A DNA stretch of 36,649 nucleotides from positions 1 to 36,649 of the forward strand of contig CALZJE010000034.1 in assembly GCA_945787715.1 (NCBI GenBank), written 5' to 3'. Of the stretch, positions 26,494-32,397 are shown piece after piece. Under the pieces are notes generated by a model. The model saw only the letters and a list, made by a program, of their open reading frames with translations, was not told the origin of the DNA and did not search any database. This stretch comes from an uncultured Ectothiorhodospiraceae bacterium (GTDB taxonomy: Bacteria > Pseudomonadota > Gammaproteobacteria > S012-40). Position 1 is the first letter of the stretch, and every line of letters begins with the position of its first letter. A program made the position numbers and the translations under genes.

Positions 26494-28008
26494 CTAGGAT
26501 GTCAAAATTTCGAGTGCAATTCCCGCTTGCTTTAATGTTGATTGCTCTTTTTCTAAATCTGCGCTGGTAAGTGGGTGCTGTTCTAGAAATTCGGCAGGAA
26601 ATATCAAGCGTATCTGATTTTGTTGGATGGTAATACGTGGAGTGACCAAGTCATCATAATGTCGACTTCGATTTAAAAGTACAGATATTCTTAATAGTAT
26701 GGCAATTTTTTTGGCATTTTCTTGCCAGGAAACATTGAGAGATTTAAATAATTCGTCTGAAAAACTACCCCGTTGCGTTCTTACAAGCACTGATAATATT
26801 TTTTGATCGTCTCGAGAAAAACCAAGTAGATCTGCATTTCGAATAATGTATTCGCCGTGTTTATGAAATTGTGAATGAGAAATGTTTAGACCAATTTCAT
26901 GACAGTTTGCGGCCCAGGTTAGCTGTTGCTGACATTCATTATCAGCGATAGTCCAGTCTTCTGCGACTTGAGAAAATAACTCTAGCGCAGTATTTTTTAC
27001 AGCTTCTGCATGAGTTTCATCAACATTATATCGCTTAGCCCAACTTTGAATGGTTTTACTTCGGGTGTCTTCATGATACTCCCGGCCAATCAGGTCATAC
27101 AAAACACCTTCCCTTAAAGCACCTTCAGACACGTGCATGTGTTTTATATCAAATACATTGAAGATTGCTTTTAACACCATAACACCACCGGCAAATACGG
27201 GTTGTCGTTCTGGTTTTAAACCCTTAAGCGACAATTCGTCCACATGCTCAACACGTTTGAGTTCATTGATGATCTTATCGAGAGATTCTGCACTGATACC
27301 GCTGGTACACCAGCCCATACTGGAGACAACATTTGCGACAGATTTAATGGTGCCAGAAGCACCAATGACATCTACCCAATTGAGTTTTTTATAGTGCTCG
27401 ATATAAGGCTCTAGCTCAACTTCTGCCGCGAGTTGGGCAAGACGTATTCGTTTTTTTGAGATTCTACCGCCTTCAAAAACTCGATGGCTAATAACAACAC
27501 TACCCATTTCAAAACTTTGTATATAGATGGGTTCAAATCGGTCACCTAATGTTATCTCGGTACTTCCGCCACCGATATCGATAACCATGCGTCGTCCATT
27601 CTCTTCAACCACATGATGGGAGACGCCTAGATAAATCAGCCTTGCTTCTTCAACACCAGATACGATTTCAATTCGATGCCCCAGTAACGCTTCGGCGCTT
27701 TTCAGGAATTCACTAGCATTGCCCGCTCTTCTCAGCGTATTGGTTCCAACAACTCGAATTCCGTTAGCCGGAATGTGTTTTATTCTTTGACCAAAACGGC
27801 CCAGGCATTCAAGTGCACGTGCAGCAGCTTCATCAGAAATTTGATTATTATTATCCAGACCAGCACCCAAGCGCACGGATTCTTTTAATTGATCAATGAT
27901 AATCAGGTTGTCACCTTCATGCTTGGCAATCAGCATATGAAAGCTATTTGAGCCAAGGTCGATGGCAGCTATTGTGTCTGGTAGGGTTTTGTAAATATTT
28001 TTAATCAT
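26494..28008 (-). CDS. ppx: Ppx/GppA-family exopolyphosphatase
   Basis: The 504-residue protein shows the ASKHA ATPase fold of the Ppx/GppA family: AAIDLGSNSFHMLIAK (phosphate 1), RVVGTNTLRRAGNASEF, SGVEEARLIYLGV, VIDIGGGSTEITLG (phosphate 2) and VIGASGTIKSVANV. A C-terminal HD-like domain follows (ANCHEIGLNISHSQFHKHGEYI, with His-Glu and His residues). It hydrolyses terminal phosphate from polyphosphate, and related enzymes act on pppGpp. The length fits E. coli Ppx (513). Gene context (PPK2 and CHAD genes nearby) supports polyphosphate rather than pppGpp as main substrate. It is transcribed divergently from the rest of the polyphosphate locus. Confidence 0.93.
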   Translation of the reverse strand: MIKNIYKTLPDTIAAIDLGSNSFHMLIAKHEGDNLIIIDQLKESVRLGAGLDNNNQISDEAAARALECLGRFGQRIKHIPANGIRVVGTNTLRRAGNASEFLKSAEALLGHRIEIVSGVEEARLIYLGVSHHVVEENGRRMVIDIGGGSTEITLGDRFEPIYIQSFEMGSVVISHRVFEGGRISKKRIRLAQLAAEVELEPYIEHYKKLNWVDVIGASGTIKSVANVVSSMGWCTSGISAESLDKIINELKRVEHVDELSLKGLKPERQPVFAGGVMVLKAIFNVFDIKHMHVSEGALREGVLYDLIGREYHEDTRSKTIQSWAKRYNVDETHAEAVKNTALELFSQVAEDWTIADNECQQQLTWAANCHEIGLNISHSQFHKHGEYIIRNADLLGFSRDDQKILSVLVRTQRGSFSDELFKSLNVSWQENAKKIAILLRISVLLNRSRHYDDLVTPRITIQQNQIRLIFPAEFLEQHPLTSADLEKEQSTLKQAGIALEILTS

Positions 28009-28105
28009 GATTTTATCTCGGTTACGTTGACACCGTTATTTCATCAGCTGATTTTTTGGATCAAAACATTTTATCTGATTAATCGTATTTATCAATAAAA
28101 CTTGC

Positions 28106-28133
28106 TTGAACTGGTATATGAATAGGCTATCAT
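28106..28133 (+). promoter_or_regulatory. Candidate sigma-70 promoter of the small RHH gene
   Basis: A TTGAAC box (28106-28111) and TATCAT box (28128-28133) with 16-base spacing lie 24 bases before the GTG at 28158. Spacing is slightly short; assignment is by eye. Confidence 0.4.
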
Positions 28134-28157
28134 AAGTATATACATATTACTAACCGA

Positions 28158-28340
28158 GTGAATATTGTGCGGAGCAAAAAAGATAAAAAAAGTAAAAAAA
28201 AAGACAGCCAATTACTTATTCGCGTTAACAAGGAAGAACGAGATAGGTTTCTTGAAATCTGCGAAGAACTTGACACTAGTGCAGCAAGAGAGATCAGACG
28301 CTTTATGCGTGGTTTCATCACTGAGAATGAAAAACTATAG
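28158..28340 (+). CDS. Small basic ribbon-helix-helix-like protein
   Basis: The 60-residue product begins with a lysine-rich tail, then QLLIRVNKEERDRFLEICEE and DTSAAREIRRFMRGFI. The strand-helix-helix order is that of ribbon-helix-helix DNA-binding proteins (strand residues LLIRV, then two helices). Dimers of such proteins bind operators, so it could repress its own or a neighbouring gene. Starts are GTG at 28158 or 28167, neither with a strong ribosome site. It lies between divergent ppx and the lysine-rich miniprotein gene, so it may regulate the polyphosphate locus (inference). Confidence 0.6.
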   Translation: MNIVRSKKDKKSKKKDSQLLIRVNKEERDRFLEICEELDTSAAREIRRFMRGFITENEKL

Positions 28341-28437
28341 CTCATATGTTGTGTAAATCCCAATGTAATCTTTTTATATGATTGGGGATCATTTAGCCGG
28401 CGCTATTATGCGCACTAGATTAAACAGGAGATATATT

Positions 28438-28557
28438 ATGGCAAAAGCGAAAAGTGCGAAATCTTTGAAAAAGGAAATTAAATCCAGAAAAGAAAAGGTT
28501 AGTAAACAAAAAAATAAAATTAAAAAATTACAAAAGTCTTTAAAAAAGGCCAAGTAA
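28438..28557 (+). CDS. 39-residue lysine-rich miniprotein
   Basis: An ATG with a strong AGGAG site (AACAGGAGATATATT) opens a 39-codon gene whose product is 17 of 39 lysine (MAKAKSAKSLKKEIKSRKEK, then more Lys-rich sequence with KIKKLQKSL). It has only one Arg and two Glu, so it is very basic, and is probably helical with a coiled-coil-like heptad at the end. It resembles histone H1-like tails in composition. It is too short for ordinary ORF cut-offs. Its place between ppx and PPK2 suggests it may bind polyphosphate or DNA (inference). A GGCCAA / TTGGCC hairpin follows the stop. Confidence 0.65.
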   Translation: MAKAKSAKSLKKEIKSRKEKVSKQKNKIKKLQKSLKKAK

Positions 28558-28734
28558 TTTTTGGCCATGGATGGCCTTATGCCGTGAAGTACATGGGCGT
28601 ACGAGAGCGGCGCTGGCCATGTAAGTTTTAGTGAAGTTCATTTATACACAAGAACCGCACCGATATTATTTAATCAAAATTATTGATGTAAATATCAAGT
28701 ATGTATTCAAATCAAATAACACGGATAAAATGCT

Positions 28735-29607
28735 ATGTTTAACGCTATTCCGAGTCCTTATCTTGCACCATTCGATAATACATTTCTTATTAAAAATTAT
28801 CCTACAGCACCGCTAAAACACGGCTTAAGTAAACAAGAATGTAAGAAACGTCTGGATGAATTATCTCTCACCATTAGTGATTTACAGCGTATACTCTATG
28901 CACATAATCAATATTCTATCCTTCTTATTTTTCAGGCGATGGATGCAGCAGGTAAAGATAGTACAATTCGTACAGTGTTGGATAATGTTGACCCCAATGG
29001 TAGTCAGGTGTATTCCTTTCAAGCGCCCACGGAGGAGGAACTCAAACACGATTTTATATGGCGAACAGTAGACAAACTACCACCACATGGACGAATTGGT
29101 ATTTTTAATCGTAGCTATTATGAAGAAGTATTGATTGTAAAAGTACATTCAGAATTTCTTAGAACGCAAAATATTACAGCTTCGGAAGTCAATGAAGAAT
29201 TCTGGGGGAATCGATTCTCATCTATTTTGGATCACGAAAAACATCTGGCACGAAATCGTACAATAATATTGAAATTCTGGCTCAATGTTTCAAAAAAAGA
29301 ACAAAAAAAACGATTTCTTTCTCGTATTGATGAGCCGCAAAAAAACTGGAAATTTTCTAAAGACGACATTAATGAACGCCAACACTGGAATGAGTACATG
29401 AGTGCCTACCAGACATGTATTTCCCAAACGTCTAAACCCTGGGCACCCTGGTACGCCATACCCGCTGACGACAAACCGTTTATGCGTATGTGTGTCGCCG
29501 ACATAATTGTGGCTACAATGCGTAGTCTGGGATTAACGTACCCTCGCATCGGCACGAATGAGCATAAAGAGTTTCAAAAAATGCGAGATATACTTGAGAA
29601 TGAATAA
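28735..29607 (+). CDS. Polyphosphate kinase 2 (PPK2) family phosphotransferase
   Basis: The 290-residue protein carries the PPK2 core: LLIFQAMDAAGKDSTIRTVL, a Walker A (Gly73-Lys74-Asp75), then NVDPNGSQVYSF and RIGIFNRSYYEEVLIVKVH (Walker B). The C-terminal motifs KNWKFSKDDINERQHWNEYM and PWAPWYAIPADDKP follow. It transfers phosphate between polyphosphate and nucleotides. The single-domain length and motif pattern fit the class with AMP/ADP phosphorylation (PPK2 class III-like), though class is inferred. It is cytoplasmic. The CHAD gene follows 35 bases after its stop on the same strand. The ribosome site before the ATG is weak. Confidence 0.9.
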   Translation: MFNAIPSPYLAPFDNTFLIKNYPTAPLKHGLSKQECKKRLDELSLTISDLQRILYAHNQYSILLIFQAMDAAGKDSTIRTVLDNVDPNGSQVYSFQAPTEEELKHDFIWRTVDKLPPHGRIGIFNRSYYEEVLIVKVHSEFLRTQNITASEVNEEFWGNRFSSILDHEKHLARNRTIILKFWLNVSKKEQKKRFLSRIDEPQKNWKFSKDDINERQHWNEYMSAYQTCISQTSKPWAPWYAIPADDKPFMRMCVADIIVATMRSLGLTYPRIGTNEHKEFQKMRDILENE

Positions 29608-29642: not shown

Positions 29643-30479
29643 ATGCGAATCAAATATCAACATGATATTTTAAATTCAATTCGACAGGCAGCATTGAAAA
29701 GTTCTGCAGAAGGCGTTCACATATTAGAGAGTGAAAATTTCAATTTGCCTAAAAATACCCATCAACTACGAGTCCTTACCAAACAGTTAAGGGCTTATTG
29801 GCGAATAATCCAGCCTTTGTTTGATGATAAAGCTGCATATCATTCACATCATCAACAATTAAGGGATACAGCAAGAGCGCTTTCTCAGTCTCGCGAAAGC
29901 AGTGTTAACCGAAAGCTTGTTATAAAATTCAGAGCATCTGTGAATAATGCAGAAGAGCTTGTAGTGCTTGATGCCTTGCTCAATGTGATTACCGCACCAC
30001 ATGAGATAGCTAAATTTTACGACAAAGAAAAATTGATTACGTGTTTTGTTGAGGAACTTGCATTTTGGAAACAGCTAGACCTTAATGAAATTATGTTAGT
30101 TGATAATCCGACTTTGGGGTTATCCAGGACTTTTAAAAAAGCGAGAAAACTCGGCAAAAACGCAATCGAGCAGGATCTGGAACCAGAAATTACTCACATG
30201 TGGCGTAAATGGACAAAGTATTGCTTTTATCAGCTCGAAGTGTTGCATGAAAAATTGGATATGAAAAGATCCAACCATTATATGCACGCACTCGAATGCC
30301 TAACAGATGCTCTGGGTAAATATCATGATTTGTATGTTTTACAAAATATGATCAATGATTATGAAAGCCGGAGATTACTTGATGCTGACACTAGGGTAAT
30401 TTTTAAATTAATAGACAAGAAAAACAAAAATTTGTCAAAAACTCTAATCAAATATAATAAGCTTGTATTTGACAAATAA
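29643..30479 (+). CDS. CHAD-domain protein
   Basis: The 278-residue all-helical protein has CHAD hallmarks. The N-terminal motif is HQLRVLTKQLRAYWRIIQPL followed by LRDTARALSQSRESSV; near the C-terminus is THMWRKWTKYCFYQLEVL and then LTDALGKYHDLYVLQNMI. The conserved His and Lys/Arg residues of these helices line a basic pocket. CHAD domains bind polyphosphate, and they are often encoded beside polyphosphate enzymes, as here with PPK2 and ppx. It is likely a polyphosphate-granule or polyphosphate-binding protein without catalytic activity. It begins 35 bases after the PPK2 stop and is probably co-transcribed with it. Confidence 0.88.
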   Translation: MRIKYQHDILNSIRQAALKSSAEGVHILESENFNLPKNTHQLRVLTKQLRAYWRIIQPLFDDKAAYHSHHQQLRDTARALSQSRESSVNRKLVIKFRASVNNAEELVVLDALLNVITAPHEIAKFYDKEKLITCFVEELAFWKQLDLNEIMLVDNPTLGLSRTFKKARKLGKNAIEQDLEPEITHMWRKWTKYCFYQLEVLHEKLDMKRSNHYMHALECLTDALGKYHDLYVLQNMINDYESRRLLDADTRVIFKLIDKKNKNLSKTLIKYNKLVFDK

Positions 30480-30957: not shown

Positions 30958-31359
30958 TTATTCTGATACCCAATTTTCTATCGTTAAATCAGGTACTCTT
31001 TCAAACTCTTTTACATTGTTTGTGACTAAAACAGCATTTATACTTCTAGCATGAGAAGCAATCATTAAATCATTATTTCCAATCGGAGTGCCCTGCCTTT
31101 TTAACAACGCTCGAATAGAACCATAGTGCCGCGCAGCTTCTTCATCCCACGGATCTATTAGCAATCGTTGAGTAAAAAGGTCTAACTGATCCCATCGAGC
31201 TTCTTTTTTCGAACTGTCACTGTTTTCTATCCCAAAACATAATTCACCGTACGTTACGGAAGATATACAAATATTCTTAATTGCTTTGAATTTGTGCCGG
31301 AGCTTATCTGAATGGTTTTTCAAAACATAAATACATATGTTTGTATCAAGCATGTACAT
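30958..31359 (-). CDS. vapC: VapC-type PIN-domain ribonuclease toxin
   Basis: The 133-residue protein is a complete PIN domain of the VapC group. It has MYMLDTNICIYVLKN with acidic Asp5, SSVTYGELCFGIE with Glu39, and GTPIGNNDLMIASHA with Asp97. LVTNNVKEFERVPDL supplies the fourth acidic position as Glu118. These residues bind the metal ions for RNA cleavage, commonly of initiator tRNA in this group. The ATG overlaps the vapB stop in a TAATG, so it is translated only with the antitoxin. No damage is seen, and toxin and antitoxin both look functional. Confidence 0.93.
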   Translation of the reverse strand: MYMLDTNICIYVLKNHSDKLRHKFKAIKNICISSVTYGELCFGIENSDSSKKEARWDQLDLFTQRLLIDPWDEEAARHYGSIRALLKRQGTPIGNNDLMIASHARSINAVLVTNNVKEFERVPDLTIENWVSE

Positions 31360-31592
31360 TAATCAAAATCTCGCTCTTGTGGTTCCGAATCCATCCTTTC
31401 ATCTAGAAAGTCATCATCAAACGCTGGTTTAGAATCAAAGAATTCATCCCATGTTGGTTTTTTAGCGGTAATGATGATATTTTGACCTTTCTTTGAAATA
31501 TAAACTTCATCAGTATCAAAACGATACTCTTTAGGTAAACGAACCGCTTGACTACGCCCATTCATAAATATCTTTGCTACCTGGGTACCCAT
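31359..31592 (-). CDS. vapB: VapB-type (AbrB/MazE-fold) antitoxin
   Basis: The 77-residue protein starts with an AbrB/SpoVT-type swapped-hairpin DNA-binding domain: AKIFMNGRSQAVRLPKEYRF then DEVYISKKGQNIIIT. An acidic C-terminal tail follows (DDDFLDERMDSEPQERDFD) that would wrap the VapC toxin. It neutralises VapC and represses the operon. An ideal AAGGAGG ribosome site precedes the ATG. Palindromic sequences upstream are candidate operators. Confidence 0.92.
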   Translation of the reverse strand: MGTQVAKIFMNGRSQAVRLPKEYRFDTDEVYISKKGQNIIITAKKPTWDEFFDSKPAFDDDFLDERMDSEPQERDFD

Positions 31593-32023: not shown

Positions 32024-32164
32024 ATGAGTAAAATGATGAGGGAATGTATCAATCAGTTATGTACGAAACAAGATCTGACACCAATATTCGCAGGAGTTAA
32101 CAAGTTCGGAATAAAAGTTCTTACACCAAAAGAATTTTTGGAAAAAAGAGGTTTATTAAAATGA
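32024..32164 (+). pseudogene. C-terminal remnant of a PIN-family toxin
   Basis: The 46-codon frame ends NKFGIKVLTPKEFLEKRG before TGA. 'IKVLTPKEFL' is the usual end of PIN-domain toxins of the COG1569 type, which pair with small RHH antitoxins like the next gene. The catalytic N-terminal part is missing; an in-frame stop lies at 31982-31984. Its TGA overlaps the antitoxin start (ATGA), preserving the original operon junction. Confidence 0.55.
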
Positions 32165-32397
32165 GTACTTTAAGTTTAAGATTACCAGATTCTCTCCATG
32201 ATCAAATCAAAAAACTAGCCGCAGAAGATGGTATATCAATTAACCAATTTGTTGTATCCGCTGTTGCTGAAAAAACGTCCGCATTTTTAACGGCAAGCTA
32301 CCTAGAAGAACGAGGTAAAATGTCATCAAAGACAAAATTCAAAAAAGCTTTGTCTAAAGTACCTAAAGATGAACCTGATGATTTTGACAAATTGTAG
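32161..32397 (+). CDS. HicB-like / RHH antitoxin
   Basis: The 78-residue protein opens with a ribbon-helix-helix domain: STLSLRLPDSLHDQIKKLA forms the strand and first helix, and GISINQFVVSAVAEKTSAF the second. A charged C-terminus follows (KALSKVPKDEPDDFDKL). This matches the short antitoxins placed directly after PIN-family toxins. The toxin upstream is only a remnant, so the antitoxin is an orphan that could still repress its own or related promoters. The ATGA overlap with the remnant means it depended on translation of the toxin gene. Confidence 0.75.
   Translation: MSTLSLRLPDSLHDQIKKLAAEDGISINQFVVSAVAEKTSAFLTASYLEERGKMSSKTKFKKALSKVPKDEPDDFDKL

Follow-up and report, generated by a model that had tools for sequence, protein, structure and literature searches.

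The locus described here raises the question of whether a very short, lysine-rich open reading frame (ORF) lying among polyphosphate genes encodes a genuine protein and, if so, what that protein might do. The ORF lies in a 36,649-nucleotide stretch of DNA from an uncultured Ectothiorhodospiraceae bacterium, the whole of which is called the window below. A preliminary description, made from the letters alone, had taken the ORF for the gene of a small granule-associated or chromatin-linking factor. Features of the window are collected in Table 1; L and G numbers are our own labels for loci and genomes.

Table 1. Positions of the miniprotein gene, its presumed control elements and neighboring genes in the window
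Feature	Position	Strand	Basis or remark
Ppx/GppA exopolyphosphatase-family gene	26494..28008	-	context
Promoter-like pair TTGAAC-16-TATCAT before RHH gene	28106..28133	+	consensus scan
Putative RHH operator AGTATATACA, one mismatch to TGTATATACA	28135..28144	.	one base behind TATCAT
Probable Arc-like ribbon-helix-helix (RHH) protein, 57 aa, putative autorepressor	28167..28340	+	GTG start; 28158 alternative
Shine-Dalgarno AGGAGA	28426..28431	+	read from sequence; six bases 5' of miniprotein ATG
Lysine-rich coiled-coil miniprotein, 39 aa	28438..28557	+	ORF translation, homologues, helix model
PPK2-family polyphosphate kinase	28735..29607	+	context
CHAD-domain protein gene	29643..30479	+	context

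The lysine-rich ORF is a gene under selection

The ORF runs from an ATG at 28438 to a stop codon at 28555-28557, and its product, which we call the miniprotein, contains 17 lysines in 39 residues (44%) and carries a net charge of +16. Its coordinates and composition are those of the preliminary description, and the strong ribosome site reported there was found as well (Table 1); GGAG/AAGG-like sites also precede most of the homologues. The same frame is open from 28378, which would give a product of 59 residues, and we place the start at 28438 because both the Shine-Dalgarno site and the homologues favor it. Only two ORFs of at least 25 codons in the window contain at least 25% lysine, the other being a 28-codon ORF with a TTG start at 2803-2889. 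The rarity of such ORFs in the window, the existence of 33 aligned homologues and the purifying selection seen in 18 close pairs, not all of them independent (pN/pS of 0.01 to 0.37 by a simple count), argue that the miniprotein ORF is more than a chance occurrence and establish, by sequence comparison, a conserved gene family under selection. The earlier claim that this is a translated gene is supported by the same purifying selection.

The gene order in the window is ppx (minus strand), RHH gene, miniprotein gene, PPK2, CHAD. The preliminary description, which placed the miniprotein between ppx and PPK2-CHAD, was right about the neighbors, but PPK2 and CHAD are two separate genes with no fusion between them, and the RHH gene had been overlooked. 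No Rfam match to a structured RNA was found across 27900-28900, and folding of the spacer was not unusual (z -0.52). On the minus strand, a terminator-like stem-loop with a T-tract (28548-28566) spans the miniprotein stop codon. At 30958-31592, also on the minus strand, a PIN-domain toxin-like gene overlaps a small antitoxin-like gene in a VapBC-type arrangement, and a small ORF at 32161-32397 appears by eye to be RHH antitoxin-like, its sequence being unrelated to that of the gene at 28167.

The miniprotein gene is linked to an upstream RHH gene

A seed search of 274 class genomes with one miniprotein sequence returned three relatives besides itself, and in one of these (L024) a homologue of the window's upstream small protein stands directly before the miniprotein. 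With the upstream RHH protein as the query, we obtained 328 loci; 80 of these were retained and given names, and their short ORFs were scanned with a profile built from four miniproteins. A full-length miniprotein was present in 32 of the 80 loci, always on the RHH strand and downstream; in 31 it lay within 145 nt of the RHH gene or slightly overlapped it, and at L066 it lay 2.45 kb downstream. Conservation of the ORF as such was upheld, with 33 aligned homologues and 31 of the 80 named loci carrying the miniprotein directly downstream of the RHH gene. Six loci (L055, L064, L076, L080, L090 and L102) had short or variant lysine-rich ORFs of 29 to 38 codons in the same place, and 42 of the 80 had no adjacent lysine-rich relative at the first scan; L092, whose lysine-rich ORF had initially been dropped by a length filter, was later found to be positive.

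RHH-miniprotein loci occur in Gamma-, Beta- and Alphaproteobacteria. Genera with the miniprotein include Marinobacterium, Thalassolituus, Teredinibacter, Neptuniibacter, Motilimonas, Shewanella, Marinobacter, Oceanimonas, Salinivibrio and Catenovulum and, among the Alphaproteobacteria, Phaeobacter and Falsochrobactrum; Acinetobacter and Salinivibrio plasmids also bear the pair (L137, L138, L139 and L140). In the PLSDB gene table, which is incomplete, the copy on the S. kushneri plasmid is listed as a "hypothetical protein" with an over-long start, and no gene is given at the three other plasmid copies, from Acinetobacter and S. costicola.

The miniprotein profile matched 6 of 369 class genomes and 10 of 398 phylum genomes, the window's own genome counted, and the family is therefore widespread but patchy. 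An RHH gene was found in 7 of the 12 genomes identified through the miniprotein alone, adjacent to it in all seven, against a background of 8 of 274 class genomes (own genome counted), which establishes the linkage at the level of gene order. The other five genomes lacked RHH: G046, G156, G635, G646 and G373, the last a doubtful match whose frame has no start codon. Since there are miniprotein genomes without RHH and RHH loci without a lysine-rich neighbor, neither gene requires the other. Searches of Pfam and NCBIfam gave only weak matches below cut-off for the window miniprotein, a scan of 34 members against curated families gave isolated weak matches (one to three members per family), and the miniprotein profile matched no PDB sequence.

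The miniprotein is modeled as a single basic helix

Relatives of the miniprotein are 32 to 47 residues long and have net charges of +12 to +18. Among 34 aligned members, positions 10, 14, 21, 28 and 35 are always occupied by large aliphatic residues, and all 34 have a hydrophobic residue at each heptad "a" position (14, 21, 28 and 35). The hydrophobic periodicity has its maximum at 102 degrees, as in a coiled coil, and 0.9% of column shuffles reach that peak; the conserved R17 and Q/H24 sit at core heptad "d" positions. AlphaFold predicted one helix covering residues 7-38, with a mean pLDDT of 92. The miniprotein is probably a single basic amphipathic helix with coiled-coil heptads, which would be expected to oligomerize.

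The upstream partner is a probable RHH protein

Invariant in 42 RHH sequences are Q15, I18, R19, F28, C32, D36, SAARE at 38-42, R44 and F46. The protein has a lysine-rich N-terminal tail, and its charge is +5 in the window copy, with a family mean of +2.9. In the AlphaFold monomer, helices at 22-35 and 38-55 follow an extended conserved segment to which no strand was assigned, and a Foldseek search of this model against the PDB returned nothing at an E value of ≤0.001. Pfam RHH_9 (PF19839) was matched by 29 of the 42 members at E ≤ 0.01 (best, 6.8e-5), with the window protein scoring 16.8 bits, below the curated threshold of 23.4. All 42 members matched PHROG 19878, eight matched PHROG 876 ("transcriptional repressor") and one matched the Arc-like PHROG 582; among PDB sequences, a weak match to DinJ was obtained (E = 0.15). 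A search of 50,697 phage records for a phage origin yielded no match to an RHH relative. C32, found in the first RHH helix of all 42 sequences, could be structural or could serve as a sensor.

A conserved palindrome precedes the RHH gene

The palindrome TGTATATACA came to light through the residues MYIH/CIY, which recurred when the ORFs of RHH genes were extended at their N-terminal ends. Of 98 loci, 93 have it before the RHH gene with no more than one mismatch, in a set in which at least three loci (L127, L132 and L134) cover a genome region that is already represented and many of the Ruegeria are closely related, with 59 dissimilar sites left after thinning; about 0.5% of 1,705 control windows contained such a site. 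The five loci that lack it are L028, L030, L031, L034 and L046, the last at a contig edge. The RHH relatives at L028, L030 and L031 have neither the palindrome nor the miniprotein and may form a divergent branch that uses a different operator; they are adjoined by a gene that we take to be PhoU-like.

In the aligned sites, symmetric ATAT half-sites lie about ten bases to either side of TGTATATACA, as might be expected if RHH dimers bound side by side. A -10-like box has its TAT at -7 to -5 before the site in 54 of 93 cases (control, 3.2%), and the layout in the window, where the -10 element ends one base before the putative operator, is the layout seen in the relatives. The promoter consensus scan itself, which returned seven pairs in the region against 3.4 expected, is weak on its own. 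None of 29 RHH-miniprotein gaps contained a TGTATATACA-type site, and the two genes therefore fit a single operon. The window operator cannot be confirmed within its own AT-rich genome because it has one mismatch and because that genome contains five perfect TGTATATACA sites against seven reversed-pattern controls; near sites of this genome lie genes L223 and L225, presumably response-regulator-like and MarR-like, respectively.

Identity of TGTATATACA with a LexA box was rejected, the E. coli LexA box (CTGT-N8-ACAG) being more widely spaced. In the parts of the two papers available to us, the tabulated E. coli LexA sites (PMC3009722) and the use of a TGTATATACA oligonucleotide with Enterococcus faecalis Phd (PMC13034048) are unrelated to the RHH system.

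The palindrome also precedes unlinked candidate targets

In RHH-bearing genomes, unlinked miniprotein genes have a site of their own: those at L066, L152, L153 and L154 have one 40 to 179 nt upstream, with 0, 0, 1 and 0 mismatches, respectively. Miniprotein genes in genomes without detectable RHH (L022, L023, L130 and L131) have no site, the best candidates showing two to three mismatches. Small as the numbers are, all eight genes are thus as predicted for regulation in trans, and the conservation of the putative operator is established by comparison both in cis and in trans.

GC-rich RHH genomes mostly contain one to three perfect TGTATATACA sites and zero to two of the reversed pattern. In Tritonibacter, EL53 and Ruegeria marina, a perfect site precedes a helix-hairpin-helix (HhH) gene whose product has a Lys/Arg-rich tail. 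HhH/basic-tail proteins were found in 13 of 19 genomes searched, and a scan covering the HhH genes of RHH-bearing genomes placed a TGTATATACA-type operator within 300 nt of the HhH gene in 9 of 13 cases, compared with 3 of 1,014 control windows. In G657 and G683 the HhH gene begins at the miniprotein stop codon, forming an RHH-miniprotein-HhH operon, and L241 and L247 have the HhH gene with neither the operator nor the RHH-miniprotein operon. Pfam HHH_5 was significant in both HhH proteins examined, and the tails (L235-L247, e.g., L245 and L246, from roseobacter-type genomes) contain 33 to 42% Lys/Arg in 12 of 13 cases and 28% in one. With their histone-H1-like Lys/Ala tails, these roseobacter-type proteins are putative H1-like proteins with a dedicated regulator. 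The accessible text of the literature searched yielded no published account of the RHH/miniprotein/HhH combination.

Other genes also lie near such sites. Two Marinobacterium genomes (L222 and L234) have a small Cys-rich gene, with a product of 61 to 62 residues, near TGTATATACA, 40 nt downstream of it in L222; we assume that both products are zinc-ribbon-like, and the L234 protein has no Pfam match. In Marinobacterium stanieri (L219), a gene that we take to be Na/Pi-cotransporter-like starts 14 nt behind a perfect TGTATATACA.

A proposed repressed, nucleoid-type miniprotein and the alternatives

We propose that the RHH protein, probably as an Arc-like dimer, binds the TGTATATACA-type operator immediately downstream of the -10 box and, to judge from the comparative footprints, represses its own gene together with that of the miniprotein. 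The miniprotein would be the effector of this small self-regulated operon, probably forming oligomers on a polyanion (DNA or RNA being the likeliest), whose charge it would balance and which it would condense in the manner of a nucleoid protein; in the alphaproteobacteria, the same operator or operon would also serve the HhH protein with the histone-H1-like tail. That the RHH protein regulates the miniprotein is very probable from the conserved sites and gene order. We infer repression, oligomerization and nucleic acid as the ligand; a nucleic-acid or nucleoid role for the miniprotein is slightly favored, and an RHH-repressed, nucleic-acid-binding coiled-coil miniprotein of the nucleoid type is, as a whole, the reading that we hold with moderate confidence.

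The best-surviving alternative is a polyphosphate-binding role, in which the basic coiled coil would tether granules or keep them apart, possibly as a link between granule and nucleoid of the kind proposed for AlgP. It would fit the window, with its order ppx / RHH-miniprotein / PPK2 / CHAD, as well as a betaproteobacterial metagenome-assembled genome (L038) in which the RHH-miniprotein pair lies ~460 nt upstream of a ppk1-like gene (order: RHH, miniprotein, ppk1-like, ppx, SixA-like, PPK2; the ppk1-like and SixA-like identities are our assumption) and G046, with PPK2 about 1.1 kb downstream of the miniprotein. PPK2 is present in 41 of 46 miniprotein genomes (own counted), for which the 14 of 37 relatives with PPK2 (own counted), found with a less sensitive query, are not a matched background. 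In the sections available of the papers concerned, the H1-like AlgP is found on granules, whose spacing depends on it (PMC9239181), and Lys-rich stretches bind polyphosphate noncovalently (PMC12077175).

Against this, PPK2 is nearby in only 2 of the 45 other miniprotein genomes (L038 and G046), and a place beside PPK2 appears to be rare for the ORF in relatives. The two cases are slightly above the chance expectation for PPK2 alone (a rough 0.18; P about 0.014), but when ppk1, ppx and gppA are counted the expectation rises to an estimated 0.5 or so and the excess is not significant. Moreover, 19 PPK2 loci of other genomes (L003-L021) have no miniprotein, and the alphaproteobacterial operon partner is a DNA-binding-type HhH protein, with no polyphosphate gene. 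Polyphosphate synteny was rejected as the main explanation on account of its rarity (tblastn around the loci; PPK2 search in 46 genomes) and kept as a rival; we regard a polyphosphate role for the miniprotein, alone or additional, as unlikely, though the least unlikely of the alternatives. Of the function guessed in the preliminary description, the chromatin-linking part is thus the one favored; the conserved link to polyphosphate genes is weak, and the steady partner is the RHH gene.

Acidic membranes or ribosomal RNA would likewise be suitable partners for a cationic amphipathic helix, and the miniprotein might then be a membrane-, ribosome- or RNA-associated basic peptide and not a nucleoid protein. 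We consider this improbable: the miniprotein appears to be co-regulated, and shares an operon, with an HhH protein bearing an H1-like tail, and the polar R17 and Q/H24, each at a heptad "d" position, favor a coiled coil over membrane insertion.

Least probable is a toxin-antitoxin module with the RHH protein as antitoxin and the cationic helix as toxin, which the gene order, the conserved site before the operon and the carriage of the pair by Acinetobacter and Salinivibrio plasmids would suggest, but against which stand the occurrence of the miniprotein without any RHH gene in 4 to 5 of 12 genomes and of RHH often without the miniprotein, the basic charge of both partners (+12 to +18 and a mean of +2.9), an RHH C-terminal tail so short that it offers little to neutralize a toxin, a regulon that reaches HhH genes in trans and the lack of any match to toxin-antitoxin families beyond one weak VapB-like one.

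The RHH-repressed, nucleoid-type reading can be extended, speculatively, to a polyanion-homeostasis circuit, which we think doubtful as a whole. Here the miniprotein would coat DNA, as well as polyphosphate in some lineages, while the RHH repressor would read the level of free polyanion or miniprotein (the miniprotein might, for instance, displace it from its operator), thereby fixing the amount of nucleoid- or granule-condensing protein; in alphaproteobacteria the circuit would also drive the HhH H1-like protein. If real, such a circuit would parallel, in bacteria, the dosage control of linker histones. An ORF of 39 codons that had stood alone is now placed in a conserved regulon: there is a putative repressor, its operator is defined, and the basic targets fall into at least two classes. 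Should the miniprotein prove to be a protein of the nucleoid or of granules, it would count as a very short one of its kind. The operator opens the system to simple reporter tests and offers a new approach to how H1-like proteins are dosed in bacteria and to whether nucleoid and polyphosphate granules share a tether.

Comparison with known systems

Type II toxin-antitoxin systems such as RelBE and DinJ-YafQ share with this locus the adjacency of an RHH gene first and a small gene second, with an operator in front, and presumably autoregulation; here, in contrast, miniprotein and RHH occur apart, both are basic and the regulon acts in trans. CHAD domains are polyphosphate-binding proteins according to the part of the source available (PMC6537752). 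The CHAD protein of the window belongs to the same cluster and is likewise a helical domain of polyphosphate-binding type, but it is a conserved-histidine domain of about 200 residues with no sequence relation to the miniprotein.

The upstream partner resembles the Arc/MetJ repressors in its basic N-terminal tail, its strand-like SQLxIRI segment and its two predicted helices, as well as in a putative palindromic operator before its own gene with flanking half-sites. Compared with this group (RHH_9, PHROG 19878 and PHROG 582), it is subthreshold to Pfam, and the gene that it would serve is that of a basic miniprotein and not one for a phage antirepressor or a toxin.

The H1-like AlgP of P. aeruginosa, in the portion of the paper at hand, is a polyphosphate granule protein proposed to link DNA to the granules (PMC9239181). 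Like the AlgP/PhaF/histone-H1-like tail proteins of Pseudomonas, the miniprotein is highly basic, Lys-rich and presumably polyanion binding. AlgP and PhaF combine a separate N-terminal domain with long disordered KPAA repeats; the miniprotein consists of a single heptad helix of 39 residues that lacks both proline and KPAA repeats, and it is the co-regulated HhH/Lys-tail protein that comes closer to AlgP/PhaF in composition.
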